From NCBI GenBank assembly GCA_023395555.1, contig JAEWYQ010000038.1, positions 1-64,000 on the forward strand: 64,000 nt of DNA. Reading direction: 5' to 3'. The notes below the pieces were generated by a model, which saw only the letters and a program-made list of their open reading frames with translations, was not told where the DNA came from and did no database searches. This stretch comes from Bacillota bacterium. GTDB lineage: Bacteria > Bacillota > Clostridia > Lachnospirales > Lachnospiraceae. A program made the translations under genes and the position numbers. Shown here in pieces: positions 36,871 through 56,929 of the stretch (its first letter is position 1; the number at the start of each line of letters is the position of its first letter).

Positions 36871-36959
36871 TAACGCCGTCTGATCCGCAGGCAGCAAAGC
36901 GATTCATTTTTCACGGCTTGATGAATATACTGTATTAAGTATGTATAATGGGAGAAGCT

Positions 36960-39814: not shown

Positions 39815-40681
39815 TTACTTAATTCCCGAATGTGCCATTGTATTCATTACCTTGCTCTGCAGCAGAATGAACAGCAGTATATTGGGAAGGAACATAATAA
39901 GTGCTCCTGCCGCCGCCATTCCCTGGCCGACTACCGTATTGTTGGCATTGATCAGGGTGCTCATGTAAAATGCCAGGGTTTTCATACTCTCCTGGGAGGT
40001 GAACATATTGGAGGTCTCCAGGTTCCCCCACACCTGCTGAAAGGACAAAATGCATACAGTAGCAACCGCGGGCTTGATCAGCGGTAGAATGACCTTGGCA
40101 TATACCTTGAGATTGCTGGCGCCGTCCATGTAGGCGGCCTCCATCAGCTCATCCGGCACCTGGTCGATAAATTGCTTTAACAGGAACAAACCGACAGGCA
40201 TGGCCAGCAAGGGCAGGATATGGGCAAAGTAGGTATCCATAATTCCCATCTTATCAATAATCAGGTATCGTGGAATCAGCACCGCAGCCGGTACGAACAT
40301 CATGGACAGGGTATTGGCTTCGAAGATCAGCTTCTTCCCCTTGAACTCCAGCTTGGACAGGGCAAAGCCCGCCATGGAGCCGATGATCACCGTCAGCAGC
40401 ACCACCAGGAAGGTGACCGCCAGGGTGTTAAGCAGATACCTGCTTAACGCCACGGATGAGGTCTGCGCTGTCTGGGACAGCTTTGTAAAGTTATCCAAAG
40501 TCGGATGAACCGCAAAGAATTTCGGAGGAAAAGCAAACAATTCTCCCAGGGGTTTAAAGGCATGATTGATGATGTAAACAATTGGCAGCGCCATAAATAA
40601 TGCCAGGGGCACTAATACGATATAGAATTTTAACTGGCTTTTTTGAAAGCCCTTCGGATTAATTGTTATGCTTCTCTTCAT
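39815..40681 (-). CDS. Carbohydrate ABC permease (MalG type), last gene of the large glycan operon
   Basis: Permease of 288 residues, six helices. The EAA loop is LMEAAYMDGASNLKVYAKVILPLIKPA. The start at 40681 follows GGAAGAGG. It is 55 bases after a solute-binding gene, an unusual place because MalG-type permeases normally directly follow the MalF-type gene. It may be the missing partner of the permease at 48.6-49.5 kb or an extra subunit. No ATPase in the cluster. Confidence 0.9.
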   Translation of the reverse strand: MKRSITINPKGFQKSQLKFYIVLVPLALFMALPIVYIINHAFKPLGELFAFPPKFFAVHPTLDNFTKLSQTAQTSSVALSRYLLNTLAVTFLVVLLTVIIGSMAGFALSKLEFKGKKLIFEANTLSMMFVPAAVLIPRYLIIDKMGIMDTYFAHILPLLAMPVGLFLLKQFIDQVPDELMEAAYMDGASNLKVYAKVILPLIKPAVATVCILSFQQVWGNLETSNMFTSQESMKTLAFYMSTLINANNTVVGQGMAAAGALIMFLPNILLFILLQSKVMNTMAHSGIK

Positions 40682-40736
40682 AAGAACCTCTTCCTTCCGG
40701 ATATACTGAAATAATGAATAATAAATTATTTATTAA

Positions 40737-42206
40737 TTACGGCATATTAGCCAGCCACTCATCCTTGAATTCGTTGGCCTTCTGGGTCAAGGTATCCGCC
40801 ATCTCGGCAGGGGTTACTTCCCTGTTGTCCAGCTGGGCCCAGATACCGTTCTCGGTTGCCCAGGCATCAAACTGGCTCCAGCCGGGTGCTACGGAACCTA
40901 CTGTAGGAACCACATTGGTCAGTCTCTTATATACTTCCTTGATATCTTCTCTGTCCGTGAAGGCCGAGACTGCATCCCACACCTTCTGATTGCTGATGAC
41001 CGGCATACGGCTTACCATGGTAACTCCTGCCGCCTTGTAGCCTTCCAGACGGTTCAGACAGGCTTCTTCACCCCAGGAGGTCCACTTCTGAAGCTCCCAT
41101 GCCTCTCTCGGATGCTCTGTTGTTGAAGAAATCACACCATAATCCACGATAGCCATCTGTCTTCCGGAAGGCCCCGCAGGCTGGGGATAGTATAAGAAAT
41201 CACAGCCGGACTGCGCCTTTACGGCATCCTCAAAGTAAGCAATGGTCCAGGTCCAGTCAAAATGCATTGCACTTCTTCCGAATCCGGGAGGCCATGCGCC
41301 TTCATCGCCAAGCCATTTCAGCTTATCTTCCGGGGACTCCCACTCACAGATATCCCTGTCAATAAAATCGTATTTAAGATTCAAGCCGTCAATCCAGGAC
41401 TGACCAAAATTATAATTGCTTCCGTCCCAGCCTCTCATGGATTCATTATCCGTATACTGGGCGGGAAAATAATCCGCATAGTTGGGATTGGAGGTTCCAA
41501 AGTTAAAATCCTCCGGATGGGAGATTCTGGCCGCAATATCTTTGAACTGATCCAGGGTCCAGTCATAGGACGGAAGGGGCTCGTTATACTTCTCAAACAA
41601 AGTCTTGTTTAAGAACACCAGATAAGGGAACATAACGACGGGCATGCTGTACAGCCTGCCGTTAATTCTGGCATTTTCCACCATGGAGGGATAAACATCC
41701 TTGGCATCCGGGTCTTTTTCAAAAAATTCTGTTACATCCATGGCCCACTGATTGGAAATAGCGTCGGTTACCGAGAAGGTCCAGAACACGTCCGGCAGGG
41801 TGCCGGTTGCCGCCATGGTGGTAAGTCCGTCATTCCAGGCCGCCTGGTCGATGGTTACAAATTCCACCTTGATGTTGGGATACGCCTTCATGAATGCTTC
41901 AATCTGTTTGTCCTTCGCTTCGGTTTCCCCTTTTTCCCCAAGACCCCAGCAAGCATAGGTGAGAGTGATATTCTCGGTTGTCATAGGCCCCAGCAGGGAA
42001 TCTGCATCTGCATTGGCATCCGCATTGGTATCCGTGTCTGTTTTGGCATCGGCATCTGCATCCTTATCCTTCGTGCCGCTTCCCTGGTCTGCTGCTTTTG
42101 TAACATCTGGATTTCCGCCGCCCGTGCTCTTTTCCTGGCAGGCGGTGAGGGTTGACAGTATTAATACCATAATCATTAATACCGACAATAGTTTTTTCGC
42201 CTTCAT
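40737..42206 (-). CDS. Sugar-binding lipoprotein with repetitive Asp/Ala linker
   Basis: Family 1 extracellular solute-binding protein of 489 residues. Lipobox LTAC (Cys23), then a linker of about 45 residues containing a hexamer-coded Asp-Ala/Asp-Thr tract (residues 47-69). The ligand-binding body starts ITLTYACWGLGEKGETEAKDKQIEAF and includes FDWTWTIAYFEDA and a WELQKWTSWGEEA segment with aromatic residues. Ribosome site AAGAGGAGG. It lies between permeases at 42.3 and 39.8 kb. The sugar is unknown; the operon's GH2 and GH43 enzymes suggest a plant-derived oligosaccharide. Confidence 0.92.
   Translation of the reverse strand: MKAKKLLSVLMIMVLILSTLTACQEKSTGGGNPDVTKAADQGSGTKDKDADADAKTDTDTNADANADADSLLGPMTTENITLTYACWGLGEKGETEAKDKQIEAFMKAYPNIKVEFVTIDQAAWNDGLTTMAATGTLPDVFWTFSVTDAISNQWAMDVTEFFEKDPDAKDVYPSMVENARINGRLYSMPVVMFPYLVFLNKTLFEKYNEPLPSYDWTLDQFKDIAARISHPEDFNFGTSNPNYADYFPAQYTDNESMRGWDGSNYNFGQSWIDGLNLKYDFIDRDICEWESPEDKLKWLGDEGAWPPGFGRSAMHFDWTWTIAYFEDAVKAQSGCDFLYYPQPAGPSGRQMAIVDYGVISSTTEHPREAWELQKWTSWGEEACLNRLEGYKAAGVTMVSRMPVISNQKVWDAVSAFTDREDIKEVYKRLTNVVPTVGSVAPGWSQFDAWATENGIWAQLDNREVTPAEMADTLTQKANEFKDEWLANMP
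42000..42068 (-). repeat. Hexanucleotide repeat coding Asp-Ala/Asp-Thr linker
   Basis: GCATCT, GCATTG, GCATCC-type six-base units in tandem. They encode the acidic linker between lipid anchor and ligand-binding domain. Confidence 0.75.
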
Positions 42207-42298
42207 ACAAAATCCTCCTCTTATAATGATTTAAAAGCTTTCCCTATGTGATCTTAAGGGCCGCTGCTTTCCGGCTCCTTAAGTCTAAGGCATTCCTG

Positions 42299-43264
42299 TT
42301 ACTCCCCGGTAATACCGGTTCTGTCGATCCCTTCCACGAAGTATTTCTGCAATACAAAATACATCAGCAAAAGGGGGGATATGGTAACCACCGTAGCGGC
42401 CATTTTAATGGCTTCGTTAGCGACGGAGTCGCCCATTACGGAAGCCCCCCATCCGGCTACCATCTGCACATGCTGCTTGTAGCTGATGTCAAAATTCTGC
42501 AGCTCCAACAGCATGGTCCTTACCACGCCGGTATCCGTGGCGCTGGTAATTCCCATATACAGGGCGGTAAAATAGGTATCATTCCAATACCATACAAAGG
42601 AAAATAAAAAGCATATGATAAAAGCCGGGACCGCCAGCGGCACCGCTATCCCAAGGAAGATCCTCGCCTCGGAAGCGCCGTCCACCCTGGCCGCTTCATC
42701 CAGGGAGATAGGGGTCTGCTTAAAAAACTGCATAAAGATCAGAACAAATATGGCGCTCCTGGTTCCCTGTCCCAATAGTGCGGGGTAAATCAGGGTTTTC
42801 ATGGTGCCGATCATATGGTAATCCGAGAACATGGTGTATCTTGGCACCATCAGCACATAGGGCGGCAGGATAAAGGTGATGAGAAGCAGGCCGAGAATCA
42901 GTGTTTTAAAGGGAACCTCGTACCTTGCCAGCCCGTATCCCGTCAGTGCGCATACCGCTGTCTGGGCCAGGGAAGGAAGCAGGGCGCTTAATACTGTGTT
43001 CCAGATGGTCTTATCCACCTTCATTACTTCAAAGGCATCCTTATAATTCTTTAAGGTGACCGAGGTGGGAATCCATTTTACCGACGCATCCAGGAGGTCA
43101 GGCAAGGACATGAGACTTTTTACAATCATCTCAAGGATCGGATACAGATACACGAACCCCATTGCAACCAGTATGATGTATACTCCTGCCATATATAACA
43201 GGCCCCTTTTGCCGGTGCGTCCGATGAGCTTTGCCTTGACTTTATGTAACCGGGCGTAATTCAT
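42299..43264 (-). CDS. Carbohydrate ABC permease (MalG type)
   Basis: Permease of 321 residues, six helices. The EAA loop is LDEAARVDGASEARIFLGIAVPLAVPAF and the C-terminus KYFVEGIDRTGITGE is MalG-like. The start at 43264 (MNYARLH) is seven bases after AGGAG; further upstream only a TTG is available. It follows the MalF-type gene by 58 bases and likely pairs with it and the solute-binding protein at 40.7 kb. Confidence 0.92.
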   Translation of the reverse strand: MNYARLHKVKAKLIGRTGKRGLLYMAGVYIILVAMGFVYLYPILEMIVKSLMSLPDLLDASVKWIPTSVTLKNYKDAFEVMKVDKTIWNTVLSALLPSLAQTAVCALTGYGLARYEVPFKTLILGLLLITFILPPYVLMVPRYTMFSDYHMIGTMKTLIYPALLGQGTRSAIFVLIFMQFFKQTPISLDEAARVDGASEARIFLGIAVPLAVPAFIICFLFSFVWYWNDTYFTALYMGITSATDTGVVRTMLLELQNFDISYKQHVQMVAGWGASVMGDSVANEAIKMAATVVTISPLLLMYFVLQKYFVEGIDRTGITGE

Positions 43265-43322
43265 ATCATTCTCCTGCCTTTCCCTCAGCGGATATCCATC
43301 CTCCGCATCTGCTTTTTCCAAA

Positions 43323-44231
43323 CTAATTTTTCCTTCTCATTACTCCTGCATGTACCTCCCTGCTCTTAGGCTCCCGCCCGAACAGCAGATAGCATACCAG
43401 GAGCAGAAGGCCGATGCCCAGGGAATAGATCCAGGCGGCTGCGGAGGCTACCCCGAAGCCCCTCTTGGTGGCATCCAGCATACTTTCCCGAATCCACAGA
43501 ATTACTGTGTTAATCTCCGACGTAGCCAGGAATACAATAATATAAATGGCATTGATCAGGATCATTCCCCGGATGGAAGGCAGCACGATCTTCCAGAAGG
43601 ACACCCAGGAAGAGGCTCCGTCAATGGAGGACGCTTCATAAAGGCATTGGTCGATTTTCTGCAGCCCCGACAGGAAGATCAGAATCGGCACCCCGGAATA
43701 CCACAGGATCAGAATCAGCTCGCTGAATAATGTGGACACCGGCTCTACCAGGAAATAGGGCAGCTTATTATTAATAAAATCATAGATCCCATATTGCTCT
43801 ATTAAGGGTATGGTGGATGCTCCCTGGCTCATGAGCATATTCATGACCGGTCCGCTCACTACCACGATGGGCAGAAAGAACAGGGTGCGGAACATCCCCC
43901 TCAGCTTAATCTTTTCATTCAGCAGCAGTGCCAGCACCAGGGAGAATACAAGGATTAAGGGAAGCTGCATTACGATGTTTTTAAAAAATGCCGCCAGCCT
44001 TTCCAGGAAATACGGGTCCTTGGAAACAAAGTATTTAAAATTCTCCATCCCCACAAAGGTGACTACCCTGCCCTTGCCGGTAAATGCCACTTTGCTGAAG
44101 CTGAATAATACGGACTGGACCAGCGGATACAAAAAGAAGATGAGAAACCCTGCAATCCAGGGGGTCACAAATAAGAGACCCGTTAATTTCTGCTTATTGA
44201 AAACTGTGAATATCTTTTTTCTCTTTTTCAT
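43323..44231 (-). CDS. Carbohydrate ABC permease (MalF type)
   Basis: Permease of 302 residues. The N-terminal KLTGLLFVTPWIAGFLIFFLYPLVQS and EAA loop YEASSIDGASSWVSFWKIVLPSIRG are typical. The start at 44231 follows AAAGAGG; an in-frame start at 44261 would add ten residues. It is 143 bases after the DUF5696-like gene, the largest gap in the operon, where an internal promoter could lie. Confidence 0.92.
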   Translation of the reverse strand: MKKRKKIFTVFNKQKLTGLLFVTPWIAGFLIFFLYPLVQSVLFSFSKVAFTGKGRVVTFVGMENFKYFVSKDPYFLERLAAFFKNIVMQLPLILVFSLVLALLLNEKIKLRGMFRTLFFLPIVVVSGPVMNMLMSQGASTIPLIEQYGIYDFINNKLPYFLVEPVSTLFSELILILWYSGVPILIFLSGLQKIDQCLYEASSIDGASSWVSFWKIVLPSIRGMILINAIYIIVFLATSEINTVILWIRESMLDATKRGFGVASAAAWIYSLGIGLLLLVCYLLFGREPKSREVHAGVMRRKN

Positions 44232-44374
44232 ACAGCCTCTTTCCTGATACCTTATTATCAATAGATGTCCTGCTTACAATCCATATCTGTGTCGGCCAAA
44301 GGAAGTCCGCCCAACTCAGTGAGTGTACCTCCCGGTACGCAGTGCCGCCAGCATGGCCGCTTTCCGGCATCCCA

Positions 44375-46555
44375 TCATCTCTCCTGCCGGATTACCTGGA
44401 AGCTCATAGCTTCGACGGTAACCGCACCGCTCTGATAATCGGAAGCCGAATAATTAATCAGAAGCTCCACTCCATTGTCATATTCCACAGAGACCACGCT
44501 GTCCGTCAGCCAGGCATGTTTCCTGATTCCCACGCCCTCCACAAGCCGCAGTACGGAGCCGATCCGGTTATAATAATCCGTAACCATGGGTTCCAGCACC
44601 TCATACTCCGAAGTGTAGATATAATCGGAATTGGTATTCCTCAGCTTCTCCGGAGATTCCCCCGTAAGGAGAAAGTCAGGATACGCGCCGTACTCCAGCA
44701 TTTTCAGAAAATACTCCGTCTCATTAGCTTTAAAATTGCTGCATTCGCCCCAATAAGGGAGATACCCCCTCAAAACTATAGGCAGGAAGGGAACCTCCTT
44801 GCTGATATAACTGTAGTTGGAAGTGGAAAGAGGCAGGTCGTAGTACTGGCTGGTATATTTCCAGAGATACTCATAGGGATTCTCCATGGAGATCTGAAAA
44901 TCCCCCAGCGCCTCCATTGTCTCCTCATACATCCGGGCCGTGTCCCCTCTAGAATAAATCTTCCCGCCGGAGTAAAAAGAAAATAGGGTGTCAGGCACCG
45001 AGGCAAGTGCTATCGCACTTATGTTCCCGGTTTTGTACCGGTCTGCCCACTTTTTCGCAAGGCTTAAGGTCTTCCCCGGCGTCAGGTAATACATATAGGG
45101 GAATACTCCGGCATTGGTGGACTTTTCTACCAGCATCTGGTTGATCCCCTTTACAATGTCCCTGGCCGTATTGTAAAACCGCTTTGGATTGGCTTGAAGG
45201 AAATCCTGCTGCAATACCAGACGAATCTCCTGCTCCTCCAGCTTTGCCGCAAGAGCATCCAGCTCCTTCCGGCTGCCCAGCTTTCCTTCCAGCTTGAAAT
45301 TGCCGCTGCCGTAATTTAAGGAGATACCTTTGGACTGCCATCCCGTATAAACAGGCTGGATATCCATAACCCCTTTCTCCCGCAGCTTGTCAATGATCTC
45401 TTCCATCTTAGAAACTGTGGTCATGGGTACTACCTGGTTAAAGATAAACCATTTTTTCGTATCCGCTCCGAAGAAATCCAGCTTGATGCGGAATTGGTCT
45501 TCCTGCTTTCTTAAGTCTCCCCGTTGAACCAGGTATTGCTGATACCGCCGGGCCAGCCCGGTATAATCCGCTTCGTTTCCGTTTACCAGCTTGTAGCTTA
45601 CGGAAAGATCCCTCATGTAGGGATTTTTCTCAAAGGCAGGGACGCCGGAAGAGGCCGCCGTCTGCATGGTATAGACCTCCCGGTAATTATATTTGGCGGT
45701 GACCCAGTTATAATCCGTGGTTGCGCCATTGGGATAGGCCAGGATATCCGCATTGTACTGCCCTTCCTCAATAATTCCCAGAAAGCCCTGCTTCTCTCCC
45801 GTATAGGCCATGCCGAATACCGGTACGGTAATCCTCTTCGGTTCCTTCACAAAGAGGCCGTTAAAATAATTGTTATTGGTGGTCTCCGTTCCCACATTGG
45901 GCCCGTATATTTTCTTGGAATAGGGGGTCTTGAATTTCCCGTGGTTATCCTCCAGGCTGATGATCGCCCCGGAACCTTCCGGGATCAGCAGGTAGCCCTC
46001 CTTCTCCGCCTTTTTGGTGGCCCCGAACATGGGATAGAGGTATACCGCCGCCAGCATGTAATTTTCCCCCTCCCGGATGCTCTCCTGCTTCACGGAAGCG
46101 CTGAAGCCATCCCCCTTCAGCCTTACCTGAAGGCCGATGCTAAAATCATAGGAGGGAAAACGGATGTCCGCATCGAAGCCGTCCTCATAGCTGGTGATTA
46201 CCTTCTCTGCTTTTCCCTTCACCAGATCCACCCGTTCCGGCATGGCACCCTTGCCGGTGCACAGCTCAACGGAGATTCCGGAGCTTAAGAAGCCCTTCCA
46301 GGAATCATTGGAGCTTTCATCTTCTATCACGGATTCATAGACATAGCCCGTTTTCCGGTCTGTGAGAGTGATACCCAGGGTCTCCTCATCCAGGTTCATG
46401 ATGTAATTCTGATTTTCAAAGGTGTTCCTGCTCTCCTTCTTTGGGGAGGAAGTATCCGCCGATGCCGCAGCCATGCCTCCTGCCGCAAGAGCCGCGGCAA
46501 GAACCGCCAGCAGGCATCGTGCCATATGGCACCGGAAGCTTTTTCTATCTGCCAC
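44375..46555 (-). CDS. Exported DUF5696-like protein, possible unclassified glycosidase
   Basis: Protein of 726 residues with a signal peptide (MARCLLAVLAAALAAGGMAAASA). A beta-rich N-terminal half (about 40-330; YESVIEDE, EGYLLIPEGSGAIISL, KRITVPVFGMAYT) precedes a likely TIM-barrel half (about 350-680). The barrel has QPVYTGWQSKGISLNYGSG, a LGSRKELDALAAKLEEQEIRLVLQQD strand-helix unit, PYMYYLTPGKTL and LPIVLRGYLPYWG. The pattern is what one sees in large glycoside hydrolases with a mutarotase-like N-domain, but I recognise no catalytic pair. To my knowledge DUF5696 has no assigned activity. The start is GTG, nine bases after GGAGG, overlapping the upstream gene by 11 bases. A 13-bp palindrome lies in frame at 44987. 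Confidence 0.75.
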   Translation of the reverse strand: MADRKSFRCHMARCLLAVLAAALAAGGMAAASADTSSPKKESRNTFENQNYIMNLDEETLGITLTDRKTGYVYESVIEDESSNDSWKGFLSSGISVELCTGKGAMPERVDLVKGKAEKVITSYEDGFDADIRFPSYDFSIGLQVRLKGDGFSASVKQESIREGENYMLAAVYLYPMFGATKKAEKEGYLLIPEGSGAIISLEDNHGKFKTPYSKKIYGPNVGTETTNNNYFNGLFVKEPKRITVPVFGMAYTGEKQGFLGIIEEGQYNADILAYPNGATTDYNWVTAKYNYREVYTMQTAASSGVPAFEKNPYMRDLSVSYKLVNGNEADYTGLARRYQQYLVQRGDLRKQEDQFRIKLDFFGADTKKWFIFNQVVPMTTVSKMEEIIDKLREKGVMDIQPVYTGWQSKGISLNYGSGNFKLEGKLGSRKELDALAAKLEEQEIRLVLQQDFLQANPKRFYNTARDIVKGINQMLVEKSTNAGVFPYMYYLTPGKTLSLAKKWADRYKTGNISAIALASVPDTLFSFYSGGKIYSRGDTARMYEETMEALGDFQISMENPYEYLWKYTSQYYDLPLSTSNYSYISKEVPFLPIVLRGYLPYWGECSNFKANETEYFLKMLEYGAYPDFLLTGESPEKLRNTNSDYIYTSEYEVLEPMVTDYYNRIGSVLRLVEGVGIRKHAWLTDSVVSVEYDNGVELLINYSASDYQSGAVTVEAMSFQVIRQER
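44987..44999. repeat. 13-bp palindrome copy inside the DUF5696-like gene
   Basis: GGTGTCAGGCACC; coding strand GGTGCCTGACACC, giving Val-Pro-Asp-Thr. Confidence 0.7.
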
Positions 46556-48584
46556 GATAGTATCCCTCCTTTACAATCGATACGATGAAATCCGTCACCT
46601 GGCTGATAAGCGCCACCAGGATAAAGCCCGCGGCCAGCGCCAGTACCATGGTAAAGACCGTCAGAAAAATGCATTTAAAGGTCTTCTTATAGGTATAAGC
46701 CTGTATTTCCTTGATCATCACAACTACCAGCACCGCCATTCCGGCAACAATGAAGAAATTCAGGAACTGAATAATAAAGCGTTCGTTCAGGCTCAGCACA
46801 TGCCCCAGAAGAATTACCGCCGGTTTCACGAACAGATAGGGCATCAGACAGTAGGCGTATGCACAGTAAAGATTTTTCAAAGAGCCTTCTCCGTCCTGGA
46901 TGGAGCAGATCAGATTGCAGCAGATCATACTTACCAGGAAGAACCCGAATACGGTCACGAAATCCGTTCCGATCTCATAGTAGCCGTCGGCTATTCTTTT
47001 AAACAGGAAGCCGCTGTAATACTTATTGATCACATACAGAAGGAAGAACAGCACATAGATCAGTGTGGAAGAAAGAATACTGACCTTTCCTTCAAATTTG
47101 ATGCCATAAAAGGCATCCGCCGGATTCTTAGGCATGTATTTTAAATAAGCCATCTCGCGGGAGAACTTCTTCCCCTTCACCCGTTCCAGCCGCTGTGAAA
47201 ATCCGGCTAACAGGGGCACTTTGTTTTTATGTTTTTTATAAGCCTTTCGCAGAAGATACAGAAGCAGCAGGCCAGCCAGTACCGCCATTACATTTTCCCG
47301 AATCCAGGTGTTGCGAAGCTCCCAGAACGCATCGGAATAGCCGGTATAGTCTCCGCCCTGTCTTGCGGCTGTCAAGGCTCCGCCATAGTCCTCCAGGCGG
47401 TAATATGCCTTCCCGATTCCCCGCTGTGCATAATCGAAGAGACTGTCCCTGCTTAACACCCTTTCCCATGGACCCTGGCTCTCCGTGTAATAGCCCTCCT
47501 GGAACAAATTCAGGGCTTCATGGACGGTTCTGGCGTATTCCGTCTGCTGGAGCACCGTAACCCTTGCCATTTCCGAATCCAGCACATAGAGCCTGCCTGT
47601 GCTGTCAGCGTCAATGGCGGAGGGGGCCGTGAACAAACCCGTCCGGTTATTGCCGTCATCCCTGCCGCCGAATAGGAACAGCAGCGCATTATCCCTTGTA
47701 TATTCCGCAATATAACCCTCTTTGGATATGGTATAGATGTTTTCAATATTCCCTACGGCAACATCCGTCACAAGCATCTCGAAATAGCCCGTATCCAGTA
47801 TGTTCTTGCCGGCCATATTGAATTTCTTCAAGCTGTCCCGGCCTGCTCCCTGGGTTACGGTATAGATCAGTCCGTTCCCGTCAATGGCAATATTGCTGGC
47901 TGCCGCAGGCACATTCTTCTGGAGGCTTTTCTTCATCTCCTCCGTAAAAGCCAGTCTTTTAAGGATCTGGGAAAGCCTGGTGTAGGTGTAGTTGGCTCCA
48001 AAATATCCGTAGAAATCCCCTTCTGCGCCAAAGGACAGGATGCCGTTGCCGTTTCCCTCGGAAAGGGCATAGACGCCGCCTGCTCCGTTCACCACAAGCT
48101 TGGAGGGCGCATACCGGCTCTCCTGCGCAAACAGGGGGCTGACCGGTTTTTCATAGGCTTTTACCAGGGTGCCTTCACGGTCATATACCATAATCTTTTG
48201 CAGCTTCGGGTCCGCCACATAGACGGTTCCCTGGGCATCCACATAGAGTCCGGTGGGGGTATTCAAATCACCCTTGATGGTATCGATAAGATTTCCCTCC
48301 ATATCACAGATCAGCACCCGGCTGTTGCCGGTGTCCGCAATATACATTCTGCTGTCCTTCCAGATAAACAGGTCCGAAGGATTTTTCAAGCGTTCCTCCC
48401 CGAATTTATCATATACCTGGGAGGGGATATAGCCGTCCTGGGTATGGGCCAGATTGCCATTCTTATCAATGGTCAGGGTGGTGTACGGCGCTTCTGCCCC
48501 CTTTGCGGAAGAAGGATACAGAATGAGGGCAATTGCTGTCAGAATTCCCGGCAGGCATTTTCTGAAATTATTAAGATATCTCAT
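46545..48584 (-). CDS. NHL-repeat ectodomain fused to YIP1-like membrane domain
   Basis: Protein of 679 residues. Signal peptide (GILTAIALILYPSSAKGA), then an NHL-type beta-propeller with repeated blades such as LKNPSDLFIWKDSRMYIADTGNSRVLICD, LNTPTGLYVDAQGTVYVADPKLQKIMVYD and FTAPSAIDADSTGRLYVLDSEMARV. A TPR-like hairpin (AQRGIGKAYYRLEDYGGAL) follows, then one helix (about 440-455) and a C-terminal bundle of about five helices resembling YIP1-family domains. It is thus membrane-anchored with an external propeller that may bind a polymer or partner protein. The ribosome site is GGAGGTGACC. It sits between a permease and the DUF5696 gene with overlap or short gaps, implying shared function. Confidence 0.8.
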   Translation of the reverse strand: MRYLNNFRKCLPGILTAIALILYPSSAKGAEAPYTTLTIDKNGNLAHTQDGYIPSQVYDKFGEERLKNPSDLFIWKDSRMYIADTGNSRVLICDMEGNLIDTIKGDLNTPTGLYVDAQGTVYVADPKLQKIMVYDREGTLVKAYEKPVSPLFAQESRYAPSKLVVNGAGGVYALSEGNGNGILSFGAEGDFYGYFGANYTYTRLSQILKRLAFTEEMKKSLQKNVPAAASNIAIDGNGLIYTVTQGAGRDSLKKFNMAGKNILDTGYFEMLVTDVAVGNIENIYTISKEGYIAEYTRDNALLFLFGGRDDGNNRTGLFTAPSAIDADSTGRLYVLDSEMARVTVLQQTEYARTVHEALNLFQEGYYTESQGPWERVLSRDSLFDYAQRGIGKAYYRLEDYGGALTAARQGGDYTGYSDAFWELRNTWIRENVMAVLAGLLLLYLLRKAYKKHKNKVPLLAGFSQRLERVKGKKFSREMAYLKYMPKNPADAFYGIKFEGKVSILSSTLIYVLFFLLYVINKYYSGFLFKRIADGYYEIGTDFVTVFGFFLVSMICCNLICSIQDGEGSLKNLYCAYAYCLMPYLFVKPAVILLGHVLSLNERFIIQFLNFFIVAGMAVLVVVMIKEIQAYTYKKTFKCIFLTVFTMVLALAAGFILVALISQVTDFIVSIVKEGYYRGR

Positions 48585-48610
48585 TGGTCACCTCCATTTT
48601 TCTCCTTCCG

Positions 48611-49507
48611 TCAATCCTCCTGAAAGATCCTGCGGGCAAATCTTGAAATGCCGTATATGACCAGAAGCAGGACAAGAGAGACACAGGAGGCATAGCCCAT
48701 TTCATAACGGATAAAGCCGTAGTCCTCGATGTGGTTTACAATCAGCTGCCCCGAATAAAGGGGCGTGGGATTGGCTCCGCTGAGCTGTACCCCGATGGCT
48801 CCCACCGAAAAGGTGTTCACCACTGCCATAACTGCTGCAAAGAGCATCTGCGGCTTCATCATGGGGATGGTGATATAGAACATTTCCTGGAAACGGTTGC
48901 GCAGGCCGTCGATGGCCGCGGCTTCGTATACCTGGGTGTCAATGTTCAGGATACCCGCCAGAATTGCCAGGAACCCCACCCCCATGCTGCTCCAGAGCGA
49001 CACAATAATCATAATGGCCAGCAGGTACTTTGCATCGGTGAGAAAGAGAACGGGTTCATTGGTAATTCCCAGCTCCATCAGCAGATAGTTGATGTATCCC
49101 ATCTGATCCCCTGCAAATATGATCTTCCACACCACCGCCATGGCAACACCGGAGGTCATGGAGGGGGAATAGATCAGCAATGCCAGTATGGTTCGCGGCA
49201 ACCTGCTGATCTGCGCCAGCATCCAGGCCAGCAAAAAGGAAAGGGTATAGCCCAGCGGGCCCACGACAAAGGCAAAGATACAGGTATTGGGCAGTACCTT
49301 CTGCATAAAGACATCGTCCTGGGTCAGGAGGTTGATATAGTTTAGCACCCCCACAAAATCCGGTCTCTGCACCGCGTCATAATTGGTGAAGCTCAGCACG
49401 ATGGCCGCACCGATTGGCACGATGATAAAAATTGCAAACAGCAGCAGATAGGGGAGCATAAACAGGTATGCTGAATTTATTCGGGATTTTCTCATCATTT
49501 TAACCAT
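48611..49507 (-). CDS. Carbohydrate ABC permease (MalF/UgpA type)
   Basis: Permease of 298 residues, six helices; EAA loop [27 protein letters not shown]. The start overlaps the stop of the 966-residue solute-binding gene by 13 bases (an inner ATG at 49498 is an alternative), so the two are coupled. No MalG-type gene follows directly; the nearest unpaired one is at 39.8 kb. Confidence 0.92.
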
Positions 49508-52395
49508 TCCTCAATCATCTGAATGTCGGGGACTACCAACTCCTTCATCATGCTTCCGTTGGAATCCAGGTATCCGAACTCTTCCATCTTCCGGTTCAGT
49601 TCCCGGTTGATCTTCTTCTGGGCACTGTCCACCGCACTTCGTAAATTAGCGTTCTGGGTCACCGCCTGAACCAGGACATTGCCCAGCTCCCGCTCGATAA
49701 TATAGCCCCCAGGCACTCTTGGAGCCTCATAGGTCCAGGATATCTGTTCTACTATGGTATCCTTGAATCGGGAGCTCCAGGGGGAAGCCTTGATGGCGTC
49801 CAGATTGGCCGAATTCCACAGGTATTCATTGCCCAGGGTGGATTGCAGGGTGAAAGCAAATTCCGTCTGTACTTCGGTGGAGGTCCACCAGTCAATGAAT
49901 TTCCAGGCAGCCTCGGCCTTGAGGTCATTCTCAAAGACCACACAGCTCTCCGCCGCTCCGGAGGTATAGCGAAGGACATTCCCCTCCTCATCCGCGATTC
50001 CCGGATAAGGTGCGATATTCCAGGCATCCGCCAGCTCCGGCGCCGCATTGGTCAGCAGGTTAAAGGTGCCGTAATCGGAGGTTCCGATGGGCAGGCGCCC
50101 GTCCCGGAAGGCCTGGTAGAAGCTCAGTACCTCATAGTCCATATCGTAGATCGTAAAGTTTTCCGTCAGAACCTTCAGTCCCCCCAGAACGCCGGGTGTC
50201 TCCAGATCAATCTGCATCTCGCCGCTCTCCATCAATTTTCCGCCGCTCTGAAAGATGAAGGGGGCCGTGGTGTTATAGCCCTTTACAAGAAAATTGGCCA
50301 CATGGGTGTTAAAGCCCAGACCCATCCGTTCCAGCTGGGGCAGCATCTTCCTTACTTCCTCCATGGTGTCAGGCACCGTCAGTCCCAACGACTCCAGTAT
50401 ATCCGTCCGGTAGAACAATACATAGAAGTTAAAGGTCTCCGGCAGCGCATAGATCCCGTCATCACAGACCCCCGGAATCAGCATTCCCGGTGCGAACCGC
50501 CTGCCCACTTCCTTAAAATTATCATACTGGCGCAGGTTCTCTAAGGCTCCCCGGAGAGCCAGGTCATATACATACCCGGAGGAAATTCCGATTGCGGCGT
50601 CGGGAGCCTTACCGGAAGCATTGGCAAGAATTAATTTCTGCTGGTCGGGTACAATGGAAAGATTCACATTGATTCCATACCTTTCTGCAAAATCCGTATC
50701 CGCCATACGCTGCATAATCTCCAGGTACTGTCTGGGACGGGCTACCCAGACATTCAAAGTATCCTTGTCTTTATCATAGGTAGGAGCGTAATCCTGTTTG
50801 GTGAAGGAGGAGAAGAGCCGCCTCAGGCTGAGGAATGCTTTCTTTATCACAGCCGGCTTGCCCGGCAGCTTGGCGTCCTCCTGGTACAGGAAGAGCTTAT
50901 CCAGTCCCAGCTGTCCTACGCTTAATTTCTCAATCACATTATTCACACTCTGCCTGGCGGAGCTGTTGCCGTAGGAGAACAGGTTCAGCTTCTTGGGCAG
51001 CTCGTTGGGCTTCTCGGCCAGCTTTCTCAGATTCTTGGATGCCACGGTCAGTTGGGCAATCTCACCCACGTTGCCCTCTCCGGGATTGAGTTCCGACAGG
51101 CTGCTATGCACCTGCTCCAGGGTATCCGCCCAGTCTGAGAGCTTCTGCCGGATGTTGAAGCCGTAAGGCTCCAGGTCAAAATCCCGGTATTTGTCCGAAT
51201 TTCCTCCGGTGATCTTGCTGACCTCCAGAGCCAGGGTATTCATTTCCTTTGTCACTGCATTTAATATTTTCACCGCATAACGTACCTTATCCAGGGACAC
51301 CTCCAGGGTAATGGTGTGCATCCCCTCTTCCAGGTAGATGGCATTTCCCTCTTCTTCCGGGATCAGCCTGGCGAACTTCTTAGCGTAGGGAAAGGCAAAG
51401 TCCTCGTAAAAAGCGGAGGGTATCCTGCCGTCTATGTAAATATTGCGGTACACGCGAAAGCCCGGCTTGGCGCTCTGGCGGTAATCGAAGGCCAGATTAT
51501 AGTATCCCGGCTTTCCGACTTTAAACTCGTAGGTAATGCTGGTTCCTCCTGTTTTAAAGGATTCCTCCGCTACCATATTAAGCACCTTCCGCTTGGGATC
51601 ATAGGGAGTAATATCCGTAACGAATTCCGACGCGGCTCTTATATTGGGGGAATTCCGGCAGGTCATATTCTCCGCCTCTATCACAATCAGCTCATTACCG
51701 GAGGCTTTCTCTCCCAGAGCCGGTCCGTCCTCTTCCCTTCCTTCCAGGTACAGGCTTCCTATGCGGATGTTGCCCTCTCTTGCCTGGAAGGTCAGGATAT
51801 TCTCTCCCGCCTCCAGATACAGGAGCATGGGCTCACTGTACAGATAGGCCGTATCATGGATATAGGCTTTCTTCCACTCCGGCACCTTCGTGGGCATGGC
51901 AAGGCATTCATTGCCGTACCGGTCATGCTGAACCTCCCCTGAGATCCAGGTGTCGCCCAGAAAGATCCGTTTCAGCTCATCATAGGGATATTCCCCGTTT
52001 ACCTTCAGGGCCAGATTTGTCGGAAGAATATTCTCCCCCAGGGTCTGGTAGTCAAAGCTCAGGACATAGGCTGCCGCCTGTTCTGCCCGGATGGTCACCT
52101 GCACCTCTTCGCTCTCTTCCAGCAGAAAGCCTTCCTGTTGGGTGCTCTCCGCCCACAGCTCTTCGGCGGGATAGGTAATTTCCTTCCCTTGATAAAGACT
52201 GTCCCCATACCTTTTCAGATATTTTTCATAATCCGTATCCGGGGTATTTTCCATGCCCAGGTAGAGATCCTTCAATACCAAAAGCCCCGCCCCGCAGGCC
52301 GCTGTGTTATTCCCCGCCCGAAGGGAACAGCTTCCCGCTCCGGCCAGGATTACGGCCGCAAGGCACAACAGCGCCGCTTTATATTTTTTTCCCAT
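49495..52395 (-). CDS. Very large lipoprotein: N-terminal carbohydrate-binding-like region plus solute-binding domain
   Basis: Protein of 966 residues, about twice the usual solute-binding size. Lipobox AGSC (Cys23). Residues of about 90-240 and 240-385 look like two beta-sandwich modules ([54 protein letters not shown]), of the kind seen in carbohydrate-binding modules. Helical linkers follow (about 390-530). From about 560 a family 1 solute-binding domain runs to the end ([57 protein letters not shown]). It could hold a polymer at the surface while delivering oligomers to the permease. The start at 52395 follows AAGGAG. A palindrome copy lies in frame at 50365. Confidence 0.85.
50365..50377. 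repeat. 13-bp palindrome copy inside the large solute-binding gene
   Basis: GGTGTCAGGCACC; coding strand gives Val-Pro-Asp-Thr, in the same frame as the copy at 44987. Confidence 0.7.
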
Positions 52396-52408
52396 AAGTT
52401 TCTCTCCT

Positions 52409-54835
52409 TCAGGATACGCCGTACACTGCGAACTCTTCAAAAGCAAAGCCTTCTCCCTTTGCTTCCAGCCCCGCTTTGCCGCTCAAGAAGCCATCGGTAT
52501 CGGTATAGGTGAGAATAACCTCCCCTTCCGCCGCCAGCTTCAGCACTCCTTTCGCTGCCGCGACGGAGAGCTTTAAAATCTCCGCCTCCCTGCTGGGGCA
52601 GGCATAGAAGCCAATCTGCTCCTCTTTGTAGCAGCAGCGGTAGAGATAGATTCCCTCGTGATCCACCTTCACCTTGTAGCCGAACAGGGATGCTTCCACC
52701 TGATCGGGATACCAGGATTCCCTTGAAGCCATCACATAGACGGAGACCTCACCGGTGGGCGCGTTGTTTCTGTAAATCGCCGCTTCCACGGTATAGGCGC
52801 CCCAGCCGCTCTCCCCTGCAAAGGCCCTTCCGAAATTCTCCGCACAGGTAAAGCCGGAATATTTGGTCAGCATGCTCTTGAACCTCTTATGCCCGTATAT
52901 TCTGATCTTATCCATGGCCTCCGCCGTCAGCACTCCAGCCTTTATCACATGGATATCCCGAACCTCTGCTGCTTTTTCAAAGATAAAGCAATCGATGAGG
53001 GCTTCGTCCCGGCTGCTGATCTCCAGCTCCTGGATTCCTCCGGTAAGCCGCAGGATACCGGCCTCCGCTTTCTCAAAGCCATTGGCATCCTTTCTTCCTG
53101 GCAGGGTAAAGGTGAGGGGAATTTCCCTTCCCTGACAGGAGACTGTGAGGCAGACCTCCCTTGCTTCGGAAGAAATTCTGGTAATCAGCCGGTAGGATGC
53201 ATCTTCTTTTATATTTACATGATAAACAAGCTTTTTGTTTCTTTTGAAGACCGCCGCTTCTGTCTGAAAGCCGGACTCTGTTACAGGACGGCTCTCCACC
53301 TCTCCCAAGGCATGAATTGCATCCATCCTGCCGGGAATGGCCTTGGCTGCGGTCTTGTCGCCTCTTCCGCCGACGGTATGGGATATTCCGTAGAAGCCGA
53401 CTTCCCGGACTCCTTCCTCTCCAATACAGAGGCTTCCCTGACCGGTACATGTGGAATAGCTGGTCAGGAGCATATTGTTCAGATAGATTTCCATAGTGCC
53501 GTCAATATCTTTGGCAAGCCTTACAGTCAGCAGCCCTTGAAAACTGACAGAAGAATTAATGCTGCCTTTCACGGTTTCCCTGCCGCATTCTCTTATCTCA
53601 TAGGTACCTCCGGCGCAGAGATGTATTTCACCATATCCGTAAGTACTTCCTACACAGAGACCTCTTTCATCATGCCCATGGGTACCTTCGGCATAAAGAC
53701 TTGATTCTCCATGTCCATAGGTATCTCCGGCACAGAGACCTGTTTCACCACATCCGCAAATGTCCTTACTTACGGAATGTTCTACTGTTTCATGAGATGT
53801 GCCCGCCTCATCCGATGTGACACAATTCTCACCGGCTTTATAGCCATAGAGCAGAACAAGATCTCTGCCTCCGGTATTTACATTGATTTCAACCGTATAG
53901 GCATCGGGAGTCTCCGCTCTCAAAGCAAGGTATTGTTCCGCACCTATGGTTACTGTCTCCAGCTCTTCCTTCCCTCTTCCATAATAATCCGGCAGGGAAG
54001 ACGCTTCCTGTTCCCACCAGATGGGATTGCAGTACATTCTGGCTCCGTTAAAGAAGATCCGGTCAATATTCGTGCTTCTCTTCCTTGGTACGATATCCAG
54101 ATTAATGTTATGATAGGCAATGCAATAGCTGTCCAGATCCGGCGCCAGGAAGCTGGAGCTATGGCCCAGAGCATGGAATTCATCCCCTGTTTCCAGCAGG
54201 AGGGTATTATCCCGAAGGTTCACATAGCCTTCTTCCGGGCTTTTCTCCGATACACTGTAGGCGATGCGGTAACCCCTGCTTAACAGGTGGTTCCCCGTAT
54301 AAGTCAGATAATAGATGCCCTTGCGCTTAATGATCATAGGGCCTTCCGTCCAGTAATTCAGGTAAGTCTCCGGAATCGTCGTTCCATTTACATCAATTTC
54401 ATTCCGCGCCGTCATCCTGTGGGTGATAATTCCTTTATGACCGGCCCGCAGAAAATACTGGCCTCCGTCATCGTCGATGAAAAAGCTTCCGTCAATGAGC
54501 AGGCCGTAATTCTTGCTGATGAGACGGAAAGGTCCTTCCGGCCGCCCGCTTTCCAGCAGGTAGTGCCCGCTTCCCACCGGGGAAGTCACCATGTAGAATT
54601 TCCCCTGGCAGTAACAGACCTCCGGCGCATAAGCCCCTTCAATCTCCGGCTCGTCACAGACGCTTCCAAGATAAACAAAGTCAATGAGGTTCTCCGATTT
54701 CCAGGCCTTGATATGGTTTCCCGCACTGGAGCAGTAGAGATAATAAGATCCGTTGAATCTCATAATAAAGGGATCTCCGCATTCATTTTCAGACCACTGG
54801 TGTTCAAATAAGAATGGATTTTTATATGTTCTCAT
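52409..54835 (-). CDS. GH43-like enzyme with long C-terminal region and 13-residue repeats
   Basis: Cytoplasmic enzyme of 808 residues. The five-bladed GH43 domain is at about 1-300 with Asp21 (ECGDPFIMR, base), Asp115 (LLIDGSFFIDDDG, pKa modulator) and Glu164 (YWTEGPMII, acid), all present. The C-terminal 500 residues are beta-rich and end in a sandwich of concanavalin/DUF1080 kind (TKYSGFTCAENFGRAFAGESGWGAYTVEAAIYR and onward). Residues 360-411 are four 13-residue repeats rich in Gly, Cys, Tyr and His. There is no signal peptide. GH43 enzymes cut alpha-L-arabinofuranosides or beta-xylosides. The start at 54835 has GGGAGG upstream. Gap to GH2 of 22 bases. Confidence 0.85.
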   Translation of the reverse strand: MRTYKNPFLFEHQWSENECGDPFIMRFNGSYYLYCSSAGNHIKAWKSENLIDFVYLGSVCDEPEIEGAYAPEVCYCQGKFYMVTSPVGSGHYLLESGRPEGPFRLISKNYGLLIDGSFFIDDDGGQYFLRAGHKGIITHRMTARNEIDVNGTTIPETYLNYWTEGPMIIKRKGIYYLTYTGNHLLSRGYRIAYSVSEKSPEEGYVNLRDNTLLLETGDEFHALGHSSSFLAPDLDSYCIAYHNINLDIVPRKRSTNIDRIFFNGARMYCNPIWWEQEASSLPDYYGRGKEELETVTIGAEQYLALRAETPDAYTVEINVNTGGRDLVLLYGYKAGENCVTSDEAGTSHETVEHSVSKDICGCGETGLCAGDTYGHGESSLYAEGTHGHDERGLCVGSTYGYGEIHLCAGGTYEIRECGRETVKGSINSSVSFQGLLTVRLAKDIDGTMEIYLNNMLLTSYSTCTGQGSLCIGEEGVREVGFYGISHTVGGRGDKTAAKAIPGRMDAIHALGEVESRPVTESGFQTEAAVFKRNKKLVYHVNIKEDASYRLITRISSEAREVCLTVSCQGREIPLTFTLPGRKDANGFEKAEAGILRLTGGIQELEISSRDEALIDCFIFEKAAEVRDIHVIKAGVLTAEAMDKIRIYGHKRFKSMLTKYSGFTCAENFGRAFAGESGWGAYTVEAAIYRNNAPTGEVSVYVMASRESWYPDQVEASLFGYKVKVDHEGIYLYRCCYKEEQIGFYACPSREAEILKLSVAAAKGVLKLAAEGEVILTYTDTDGFLSGKAGLEAKGEGFAFEEFAVYGVS
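53603..53758 (-). repeat. Four 39-bp tandem repeats inside the GH43 gene
   Basis: Units at 53603, 53642, 53681 and 53720, in exact register and in frame. Each unit starts like GGTACCTCCGGC and codes 13 residues such as GETGLCAGDTYGH. They are not identical, so they are not a fresh duplication. Confidence 0.9.
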
Positions 54836-54857
54836 ACAGATCTTTTCCTCCCTGCTT

Positions 54858-56594
54858 CTATCTCCGGTTAATCTCTCCAATTCTGCCGATATCCACCTTC
54901 GGCTCCCTTTTCATGGTATACAGGCCGTTGATCTCCTGCTGCACATCCGTCAGCTGGGTGTAGCAGAAGCCGCAGACATAATCCAGGGATTTGATGGCTG
55001 AAGTAATGGCGTCAAACCGCTTTATAAAATCCTCTTCCGACTGCACCTGTTCCCCGTAGCCCCAGCCCCGGTCATCCCGCAGGGCAATTCCGCCGTACTC
55101 GCTGATGATCACCGGCTGTCCCTGATAGGCATAGCCCCTGGCGAAGGCATAGAGGGAACGGTTGAAGGGAATTTCATTCCCCAGGATTTTGTCCTTGCCG
55201 GAATATCTTTCAAAGAGCTCTCTGCCGCCCTCCTCATAGTCGTGAAGGGTAATAATATCCGATACCGTATGCTGCCATCCGTCATTTACAATAACCGGCC
55301 TCATATTGTCAAAGCTCTTGGTAAGGTGATAGATGCTTTCGGTAAATTGCTGCTGGGAGACATCCGTCGCTACGGCTTCGATTCCCCAACTCTCATTAAA
55401 GGGCGTCCAGGTAATAATGGAAGGGTGATTGTAGTTCTGTTCCACTACTTCCATCCACTCCCTGGTAAAAAGCTGCATCCCGCGGTCACTGAAGGCATAT
55501 TGGGAGGCCATCTCCGACCAGACTAAGAGTCCCTTTCTGTCACACCAATACAAGAAACGCGCATCCTCTACCTTCTGATGTTTCCTCAAGCCGTTGTAAC
55601 CGGCCTCCAAAATCAGATCAATATCCTTTATGATGGCTTCCTCCGAAGGAGGGGTTAGATGGGATTCCTCCCAGTAGCCCTGATCCAGGATCAGCCTCTG
55701 ATAAATGGGCCGGTTGTTCAGCAGAACCCTGCCTCCCTCGATGGATATCTTACGCATACCGAAATAAGAATCCACCTCATCCATTACCGCTCCAGCCTCC
55801 AACAGCCGGAACTTTATATCATACAGCTTCGGAGACTCTGGCGACCAGAACTCCAGGGTCCAGGGCACTCCGGTTCCCCGCAGGCTGGCAGAAATCCGAA
55901 GTCTGTTCTCCAGCACCTGCGCCTGCTGCCTGCACACCAGCCTGCCCTCCAGCCAGATCTCCCATTGAAGCCAGGTCTCTTCCTTCCCGGGCGTACCGGA
56001 GAAGCTTGCCGTAATATCGATCAATCCCCTGTCAATATCCGGGGTCATCTTGATCCGGTCAAGATAGAAATCAGAAACCTCTTCCAGCCAGACGGTCTTC
56101 CAGATTCCGGTGGTCTGCACATACCAGCAGCCGAAATTATCATCCTTCCATCTCTGTTTTCCTCTGGGCTGCTCGCAGCTGATGCTGTCCTCCGCCCGTA
56201 CGGTTATGCGATTTCTTCCCAGCTTAAGAAACCGGGTAATATCCAGGGCAAAGGCTCCATAACCGCCTTGATGGCCGCCGGCAAAGCTGCCGTTGACCCA
56301 GACCCTGGCTTCATAATCCACACCTTCAAAATGTAAGAGCAGCCGTCTGCCGTCCCTTGCCTCCGCTTCAAACTCTCTTTCATACCAGAGGATATTATGA
56401 TGCCTCTCATCCTCAACTCCGCTTAAGGGGGTTTCATAGGTATAGGGAACCAGAATGGTCCTGCTTTCGGGGAATTGCCGGTACCACTCTTCTCTCTCCC
56501 CTCTGTTGTCATCATCAAAAAGAAAATTCCATTCACCATTGAGATTCATCCAGCTCTTTCTTGCAAACTGGGGTCTTGGGTATTGTGTCAGCAT
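54858..56594 (-). CDS. GH2 family glycosidase (beta-galactosidase/glucuronidase type)
   Basis: Cytoplasmic enzyme of 578 residues, first gene of the large operon. The sugar-binding domain (LNGEWNFLFDDDNRGE, VDYEARVWVNGSFAGGHQGGYGAF) and immunoglobulin-like domain precede the barrel. Acid/base is Glu401 in PFNESWG; nucleophile is Glu499 in ISEYGGI. It lacks the long beta-gal small-chain domain, which puts it with short GH2 enzymes of varied specificity. No signal peptide. Expression probably starts at the divergent region 56595-56848 and is controlled by the regulator encoded opposite. Confidence 0.9.
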   Translation of the reverse strand: MLTQYPRPQFARKSWMNLNGEWNFLFDDDNRGEREEWYRQFPESRTILVPYTYETPLSGVEDERHHNILWYEREFEAEARDGRRLLLHFEGVDYEARVWVNGSFAGGHQGGYGAFALDITRFLKLGRNRITVRAEDSISCEQPRGKQRWKDDNFGCWYVQTTGIWKTVWLEEVSDFYLDRIKMTPDIDRGLIDITASFSGTPGKEETWLQWEIWLEGRLVCRQQAQVLENRLRISASLRGTGVPWTLEFWSPESPKLYDIKFRLLEAGAVMDEVDSYFGMRKISIEGGRVLLNNRPIYQRLILDQGYWEESHLTPPSEEAIIKDIDLILEAGYNGLRKHQKVEDARFLYWCDRKGLLVWSEMASQYAFSDRGMQLFTREWMEVVEQNYNHPSIITWTPFNESWGIEAVATDVSQQQFTESIYHLTKSFDNMRPVIVNDGWQHTVSDIITLHDYEEGGRELFERYSGKDKILGNEIPFNRSLYAFARGYAYQGQPVIISEYGGIALRDDRGWGYGEQVQSEEDFIKRFDAITSAIKSLDYVCGFCYTQLTDVQQEINGLYTMKREPKVDIGRIGEINRR

Positions 56595-56929
56595 TGTAAT
56601 AGCTCCTTATTCTTCGACATTATAATTGTTTGTACATAATAAATGTATTAATAAAACTCTAAGTTTATCTATTATTTATGTATTAATACTTTTATTTTTC
56701 TCAATATCTTTAGTCAAAGCATACTACAATACTTATTTTATGTCAATACTTTTGTTTAGTTTTTAGCAAATAATATTTTTATATACATTTTTAATGTACA
56801 AAAATATTTCTTTCCCGATTTGCTTTCTACATTTTTATTGTATATATATTGCTTTTCCTTTTCTTTTATGTTAGGATGAAATATAACCGATACAATATGA
56901 CTTTAAGAAAGACGAGGGTTGTTCCATTT
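56595..56929. promoter_or_regulatory. Divergent control region with two TACAT-N5-ATGTA operators
   Basis: Very AT-rich. TACATAATAAATGTA (56633-56647) and TACATTTTTAATGTA (56784-56798) are two copies of the same inverted repeat. The first overlaps the -35 region of a likely minus-strand promoter (TATAAT, complement of 56619-56624) for the GH2 operon. The second lies before the regulator gene, where TACAAT near 56895 may be its -10. A dimeric regulator could bind both and control both directions. Confidence 0.7.

Follow-up and report, generated by a model that had tools for sequence, protein, structure and literature searches.

Among the described systems closest to the locus presented here are the importers of the carbohydrate uptake transporter 1 (CUT1) type, such as AbnEFJ, MsmEFG and MalEFG, whose MalF/MalG-type permeases carry a motif called the EAA-type loop. 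The usual account of how Gram-positive bacteria take up plant glycans involves a single binding protein and a single permease pair. Bacteroidota have polysaccharide utilisation loci of the SusCD type. We describe an operon from a Lachnospiraceae genome (assembly GCA_023395555.1, contig JAEWYQ010000038.1, positions 1 to 64,000; this stretch of 64,000 nucleotides is called the window) which encodes two solute-binding proteins (SBPs), two permease pairs and two further proteins, NHL-YIP1 and DUF5696. What is new is this importer composition, with two uncharacterised and nearly constant partners.

The region 39815-56594 contains ten open reading frames (ORFs), all on the minus strand, which form a single array and constitute a ten-gene operon. 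Their order, 5′ to 3′, is GH2, GH43, SBP8, perm7, NHL-YIP1, DUF5696, perm4, perm3, SBP2 and perm1. Pfam recognises four BPD_transp_1 permeases, two SBPs, DUF5696, an NHL plus Yip1 protein, a GH43 and a GH2, and a Pfam scan of the ten genes revealed no ATPase. The original prediction, which had proposed ten minus-strand genes including two SBPs, four permeases and no ATPase, is borne out on these points. If the longest ORFs are taken, the intergenic gaps range from -38 to 113 bases; the predicted values, which lie between -13 and 92 apart from a single gap of 143, were reproduced in a hand count using the next in-frame ATG in perm4, perm3, SBP8 and GH43, the two sets differing because the choice of start codon differs.

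Eight of these genes, from SBP8 to perm1, are one recurring cassette found in two closely similar orders. An NHL-YIP1 alignment was used to scan genome contigs, and of the 386 confirmed stretches the best 80 were retained as loci for comparison (the three alignments include, as rows, 44 of 56 matches for A1, 42 of the 120 listed from 1230 found for A2 and 24 of the 120 listed from 868 found for A3). The 80 loci are biased toward relatives of the window, and a sample of 299 genomes serves as a check. DUF5696 is the next gene after NHL-YIP1 in 78 of the 80 loci; in the remaining two the contigs end 105 and 84 bases beyond NHL-YIP1. All eight genes are present in every locus with more than 6.5 kb before and more than 9.5 kb after NHL-YIP1 (53/53). 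The commoner order is SBP8, MalF, MalG, NHL-YIP1, DUF5696, MalF′, MalG′, SBP2. In the other order, seen in the window and its nearer relatives, SBP2 is followed by the first MalG gene.

The 299 genomes are an even sample of a single phylum, to which G001 (the genome of locus L003) belongs, and were searched for DUF5696 alone. At most four candidates per genome were scored for DUF5696 and mostly three for NHL-YIP1, and copy numbers are lower bounds. DUF5696 was found above the cut-off in 26 of the 299 genomes; weak matches to PF18952 below the cut-off in seven more, and in the controls Thermotoga maritima and Lactococcus lactis, were not counted. At E 1e-20, NHL-YIP1 occurs in 27 genomes, including all 26 with DUF5696 (Fisher p 1.4e-36, uncorrected for relatedness of the genomes), so that the co-occurrence on which the original prediction depended is indeed found elsewhere. 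The 44 DUF5696 genes sampled exclude four G001 rows and are not all the copies in those genomes. They have NHL/YIP1 directly upstream in 41 cases, with two others at contig starts, and MalF′-MalG′ directly downstream in 41, the other three being cut by contig ends. NHL/YIP1, DUF5696, MalF′ and MalG′ are thus the core that varies least. Separate genes encode NHL and YIP1 in 12 of the 44 sampled stretches and in nine of 20 further ones. The order is likewise found in two named plasmid records as publicly annotated. Chance or lineage-bound gene order is ruled out by the synteny of the 80 loci together with the co-occurrence in the sample. The synteny check originally suggested for the two families is strongly positive in both sets. 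The earlier view that a propeller-YIP1 fusion is unlike known importer components is supported; the fusion and DUF5696 are very strongly conserved together with a permease pair.

The cassette can be present in several copies in one genome. Eight genomes chosen via the 80 loci contain 23 DUF5696 genes above the cut-off, nine of them in G001. The core is present in all 20 stretches fetched from these genomes, 15 of which lie outside the 80-locus set; L009, L069 and L073 account for the other three of the 23 genes. Among the chosen neighbours that were scanned in the eight genomes are GH10, GH16, GH35 with GH130, GH35 with a sulfatase, GH36, GH76 and GH113, with GH3 likewise among those scanned elsewhere and pectate lyase, GH106, GH42, GH29 and GH31 in the 299-genome sample. 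An arabinan-only system is ruled out for the core, since its scanned neighbours elsewhere span so many other enzyme families. The single pathway originally proposed for the ten genes is therefore retained in part: a common pathway is likely in the window, but the core is wider and recurs with many enzyme sets.

The two importers of the cassette are of CUT1 type, with MalF/MalG-type permeases bearing an EAA-type loop (4/4 in the window) and SBPs of the SBP_bac_1/8 type, as expected from the proposed uptake by two transporters. One comprises SBP8 (49495-52446, minus strand) with perm7 and perm1, the other SBP2 (40737-42206, minus strand; Pfam SBP_bac_1) with perm4 and perm3. SBP8 is a large protein whose SBP domain (residues ~565-900; PDB match 5ysb, Lin1841) follows a long N-terminal part. 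This part (~30-560) has no Pfam match, nor did one appear at E 5 when residues 30-450 were scanned alone; residues 249-384 weakly match the cycloisomaltooligosaccharide glucanotransferase 5x7g in the PDB (E 5.5e-4), which hints at carbohydrate-binding modules. Among solved relatives of SBP2, 22hh ranks first (122 bits) and 6rjy, an arabino-oligosaccharide-binding protein, second (50.1 bits). The MalF-type permease perm7 (48611-49507, minus strand), identified by Pfam and its EAA-type loop, lies directly behind SBP8 in related loci. Perm4 (MalF′; 43323-44261, minus strand), the usual downstream neighbour of DUF5696, scores 25.9 bits for BPD_transp_1, just below the cut-off of 26.4, and its partner perm3 (MalG′; 42299-43321, minus strand) is recognised by Pfam, synteny and the EAA-type loop. 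Perm1 (MalG; 39815-40681, minus strand), at the operon end, corresponds to the MalG found after perm7 in the commoner order, because its profile score is 493 versus 69 for perm3. A first EAA pattern was too strict (0/75 for perm7), and a loosened one was used for the counts: 70/72, 69/70, 69/70 and 74/75 for the four permease sets of the 80 loci, and 19/20 (perm1), 33/41 (perm3), 36/42 (perm4) and 22/22 (perm7) in the 299-genome sample. In L165, perm1 appears to be split in two by a 442-aa ORF on the opposite strand, as if by insertion.

NHL-YIP1 (46545-48584, minus strand) includes an NHL propeller, a short helical repeat, one membrane helix, a basic loop and a Yip1-type membrane domain. DUF5696 (44375-46555, minus strand; PF18952, 573.7 bits) has an N-terminal hydrophobic segment and a GH129 fold, and is probably non-catalytic. 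Its AlphaFold model (pLDDT 90.6) shares the GH129 fold across the whole chain (Foldseek 3.5e-35). The single sequence gave no PDB match at E 10, and a profile was needed to detect the relation to GH129 (E 5.7e-9 and 8e-4). DUF5696 is named nowhere in the literature searched, where 'yip1' together with 'nhl' and 'solute-binding protein' also returned nothing; 'YIP1 family protein' is absent among the matches listed, and the YIP1 term does not occur in the available portions of PMC4792470 and PMC8579813. In the sampled phylum PF11308 (GH129) is a rare family, found in 1 of 398 genomes. A GH129-like protein is encoded at 918-3533 of L184, and 120 listed database relatives of it carry both PF18952 and PF11308, so that the two Pfam families overlap.

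According to the available part of PMC5698469, the GH129 nucleophile is Asp435 in NagBb, equivalent to Asp486 in ZgGH129. The profile alignment places Ser519 of the window protein in this column. In the window's clade (the window protein and those 71 DUF5696 proteins of the 80 loci that have 691 aa or more, 72 in all), the column holds Asp in none and Glu in one, the others having Gly, Thr, Ser, Lys or Ala; in each of columns 516-523 an acid is found in at most 17 of the 72. The position of the second catalytic acid (ZgGH129 Glu517; NagBb Glu478) coincides with a gap in the profile alignment, adjoining Glu558 (Glu in 49/72). Judged from these alignments, GH129 catalysis has probably been lost in the window's clade. 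External cleavage by this barrel, originally suggested as a possibility, is not supported and is unlikely: a GH129 mechanism is rejected for the window's clade, the nucleophile column being never Asp.

A better candidate for cleavage outside the cell had been missed. Directly upstream of the operon, and divergent from it, lie genes for a helix-turn-helix (HTH) protein (56849-57862, plus strand; Pfam HTH_20/HTH_5), a probable local regulator, and for a GH43 with a RicinB lectin domain (57849-59321, plus strand; 173 and 56.8 bits). The latter protein has a hydrophobic N-terminus and is likely an extracellular enzyme. A relative of the HTH regulator is found divergent and upstream of the cassette in 43 of the 80 loci, and both genes probably belong to the operon's locus. 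The two glycosidases of the operon itself are probably cytoplasmic, in agreement with the original prediction; export signals are absent and neither has a hydrophobic segment. The GH43 (52409-54880, minus strand) matches Pfam with 108.9 bits over residues 35-278 of 823, leaving a long C-terminal part; its best PDB match is 4qqs. The GH2 (54858-56594, minus strand), recognised by its Pfam GH2 domains, has as solved relatives 7xyr (361.6 bits), 7sf2 (276), 9j6n (251.2) and 9j6m (249.6), the next scoring 95.6. Of these 9j6n is named a galactofuranosidase, and the available text of PMC12243196 assigns 7XYR to GH2_19 and 9J6M to GH2_18, and places beta-D-galactofuranosidase and alpha-L-arabinofuranosidase in GH2 group III. 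Among solved GH2 enzymes that of the window is closest to 7XYR and 9J6M, with 7sf2 (subfamily unchecked) ranking between them, and by sequence it appears closest to the furanose-acting group III (GH2_18/GH2_19). It carries the NE motif as PFNESWG, aligned with NEGWG of 9j6n; 7xyr is without the motif.

In the window, then, the enzymes beside the transporter (GH43, GH2 and the exported GH43) are of families with arabinan-acting members, their activities being those suggested by family. Clusters of GH43, GH51, GH2, L-arabinose isomerase (AraA) or FGGY kinase, named via one representative each, occur at 59 of the 80 loci and at 46 of the 51 longer than 21 kb. Because of these enzyme clusters in relatives, the furanose-group GH2 and the relation of SBP2 to 6rjy, arabinan products are the probable, and likeliest, substrate of the window locus.

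We propose that the exported GH43-lectin enzyme would trim arabinan outside the cell and that SBP8 and SBP2 would catch the released products. DUF5696, anchored outside the membrane by its N-terminal helix, would bind glycan chains with its probably non-catalytic barrel and either hand them to, or gate, the MalF′-MalG′ pair. NHL-YIP1 may be a membrane scaffold, with its propeller outside and its Yip1 domain in the membrane, which holds the parts together. A shared ATPase of MsmX/UgpC type, encoded elsewhere, would power both permease pairs, and the GH43 and GH2 would release arabinofuranose (or galactofuranose) inside. In favour of this reading, a gene for a UgpC-type ATPase adjoins the Paenibacillus cassette of L193. 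We regard it as an even call that the window is an arabinan or arabino-oligosaccharide utilisation locus around a conserved eight-gene importer with a DUF5696 receptor and an NHL-YIP1 scaffold; the receptor and scaffold roles are its least certain parts. More tentatively, and with somewhat less than even confidence, NHL-YIP1, DUF5696 and MalF′-MalG′ might form one membrane complex, an ATP-binding cassette (ABC) importer that has a dead glycosidase as its glycan receptor and a propeller as its scaffold, is coupled to a second importer and exists in many paralogous versions, as a Gram-positive Sus counterpart for long or branched glycans.

A number of observations weigh against these proposals, and three alternatives have to be considered. 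In L160 an unrelated ORF takes the place of NHL/YIP1 upstream of the DUF5696 gene. G251 (L195), the 27th genome with a propeller match, has a lone propeller ORF of 284 aa at a contig end, the other cassette genes being absent from its 8.5 kb. The EAA loop pattern is absent in 8 of 41 perm3 and 6 of 42 perm4 proteins of the sample. In one unlikely alternative, two ordinary separate importers for different sugars are merely co-transcribed, with NHL-YIP1 and DUF5696 serving as accessories, for instance a surface sensor or an assembly factor, rather than as subunits. It would account for the NHL/YIP1-free upstream region of L160, and the EAA-type loop is kept in the majority of permeases of either pair. 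SBP8, which lies behind MalG′ in L171, L178 and L179, was seen in 22 of the 44 sampled stretches, some being too short to tell, and unseen in the other 22, so the first importer appears separable. Yet NHL/YIP1, DUF5696, MalF′ and MalG′ hold together on both sides across very different enzyme sets, which would be needless for an accessory sensor. An active DUF5696, trimming oligosaccharides at the surface before uptake with a catalytic pair unlike that of GH129, we consider unlikely. It draws on the whole-chain GH129 fold, on the fact that GH129-like DagB is an enzyme (PMC5698469, available part) and on the conservation of Glu621 (72/72) and Asp360 (71/72) in the window's clade; with Glu558 kept in 49 of 72, another catalytic pair is conceivable. 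The nucleophile column itself comes from a profile alignment at 16% identity, and MAFFT puts it two positions away; it holds Asp in 19 of the 44 sampled proteins and in 7 of 15 paralogues, so that some DUF5696 members may be enzymes. Against activity in the window's clade stand the nucleophile column never occupied by Asp and the place of Glu621 in model helix 612-622, where it looks structural and is equally kept beside quite different enzyme neighbours (43/44 sampled, 14/15 paralogues).

The substrate raises a further alternative. A galactofuranose-bearing or mixed arabinogalactan glycan, instead of linear arabinan, would agree with the beta-D-galactofuranosidase of GH2 group III (PMC12243196, available text) and with the name of 9j6n; it is disfavoured by the GH51-type and AraA genes beside related cassettes and by the relation of SBP2 to an arabino-oligosaccharide-binding protein, and we judge it unlikely. 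Two observations count against arabinan or any glycan as a general substrate: the listed enzymes are absent at 5 of the 51 long loci, and the 20-kb stretch of L193 (Paenibacillus cellulosilyticus plasmid NZ_CP054609.1) has no glycosidase among 14 listed genes, in a gene table that is incomplete. The L193 cassette adjoins a gene for a UgpC-type ATPase and three for LLM-class flavin oxidoreductases, so that the substrate need not always be a glycan or a plain sugar.

The operon is bounded downstream by an inverted repeat of 25 nt (39737-39761/39770-39794, 96% complementary), likely a two-way terminator since it sits between convergent genes and could terminate both. Folded as RNA it reaches -48.7 kcal/mol (z -11.7), equalled by none of 200 shuffles; the closing hairpin of the original prediction is thus present and strong, and measures 25 nt rather than 22 bp. 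A promoter-like TTGACA-17-TATGCT on the minus strand (56746-56718) is compatible with a single promoter, such sites being near the chance number in the promoter scan (25 seen versus 19.5 expected). At 36948-37850 lies a gene for a 300-aa protein that has no Pfam match and whose second half contains short, almost perfect repeats with many D, F, S, R and E residues. On the other side, a MetE-like gene (59346-60458, minus strand; Meth_synt_2) and, behind it, ORFs resembling by eye LysR and LacI regulators are apparently unrelated to the operon. In related loci a cluster of proteins of ~300-1000 aa is found just downstream of SBP2 (23 of 80, including L020, L023 and L025); among four scanned, one matched Laminin_G_3, two matched nothing in Pfam and the fourth gave scattered matches only.

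Two uncharacterised families are thus tied to a second permease pair, with one clear exception (L160) among 44 sampled genes. If the proposed roles are true, many glycan uptake loci contain unstudied subunits, and the neighbouring enzymes give each cassette copy a testable predicted substrate. The cassette resembles CUT1 importers, sharing SBPs and MalF/MalG-type permeases with EAA-type loops and, with the mannan cluster in the available text of PMC4792470, an operon without an ATPase gene; it differs in having two permease pairs and two constant extra proteins. The SBP domains of SBP8 and SBP2 are like the Lin1841- and 6rjy-type binding proteins, SBP8 carrying in addition ~500 N-terminal residues that these lack. 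DUF5696 shares a whole-chain fold and a detectable sequence relation with GH129 (NagBb) and the GH129-like DagB/ZgGH129; in contrast to these, it lacks the nucleophile Asp (Asp435/Asp486 column) in the window's clade and is tied to importer genes. As with SusCD systems, paralogous copies stand beside different enzyme sets in one genome. The cassette uses ABC permeases and unrelated proteins, and the likeness to SusCD is one of analogy only.

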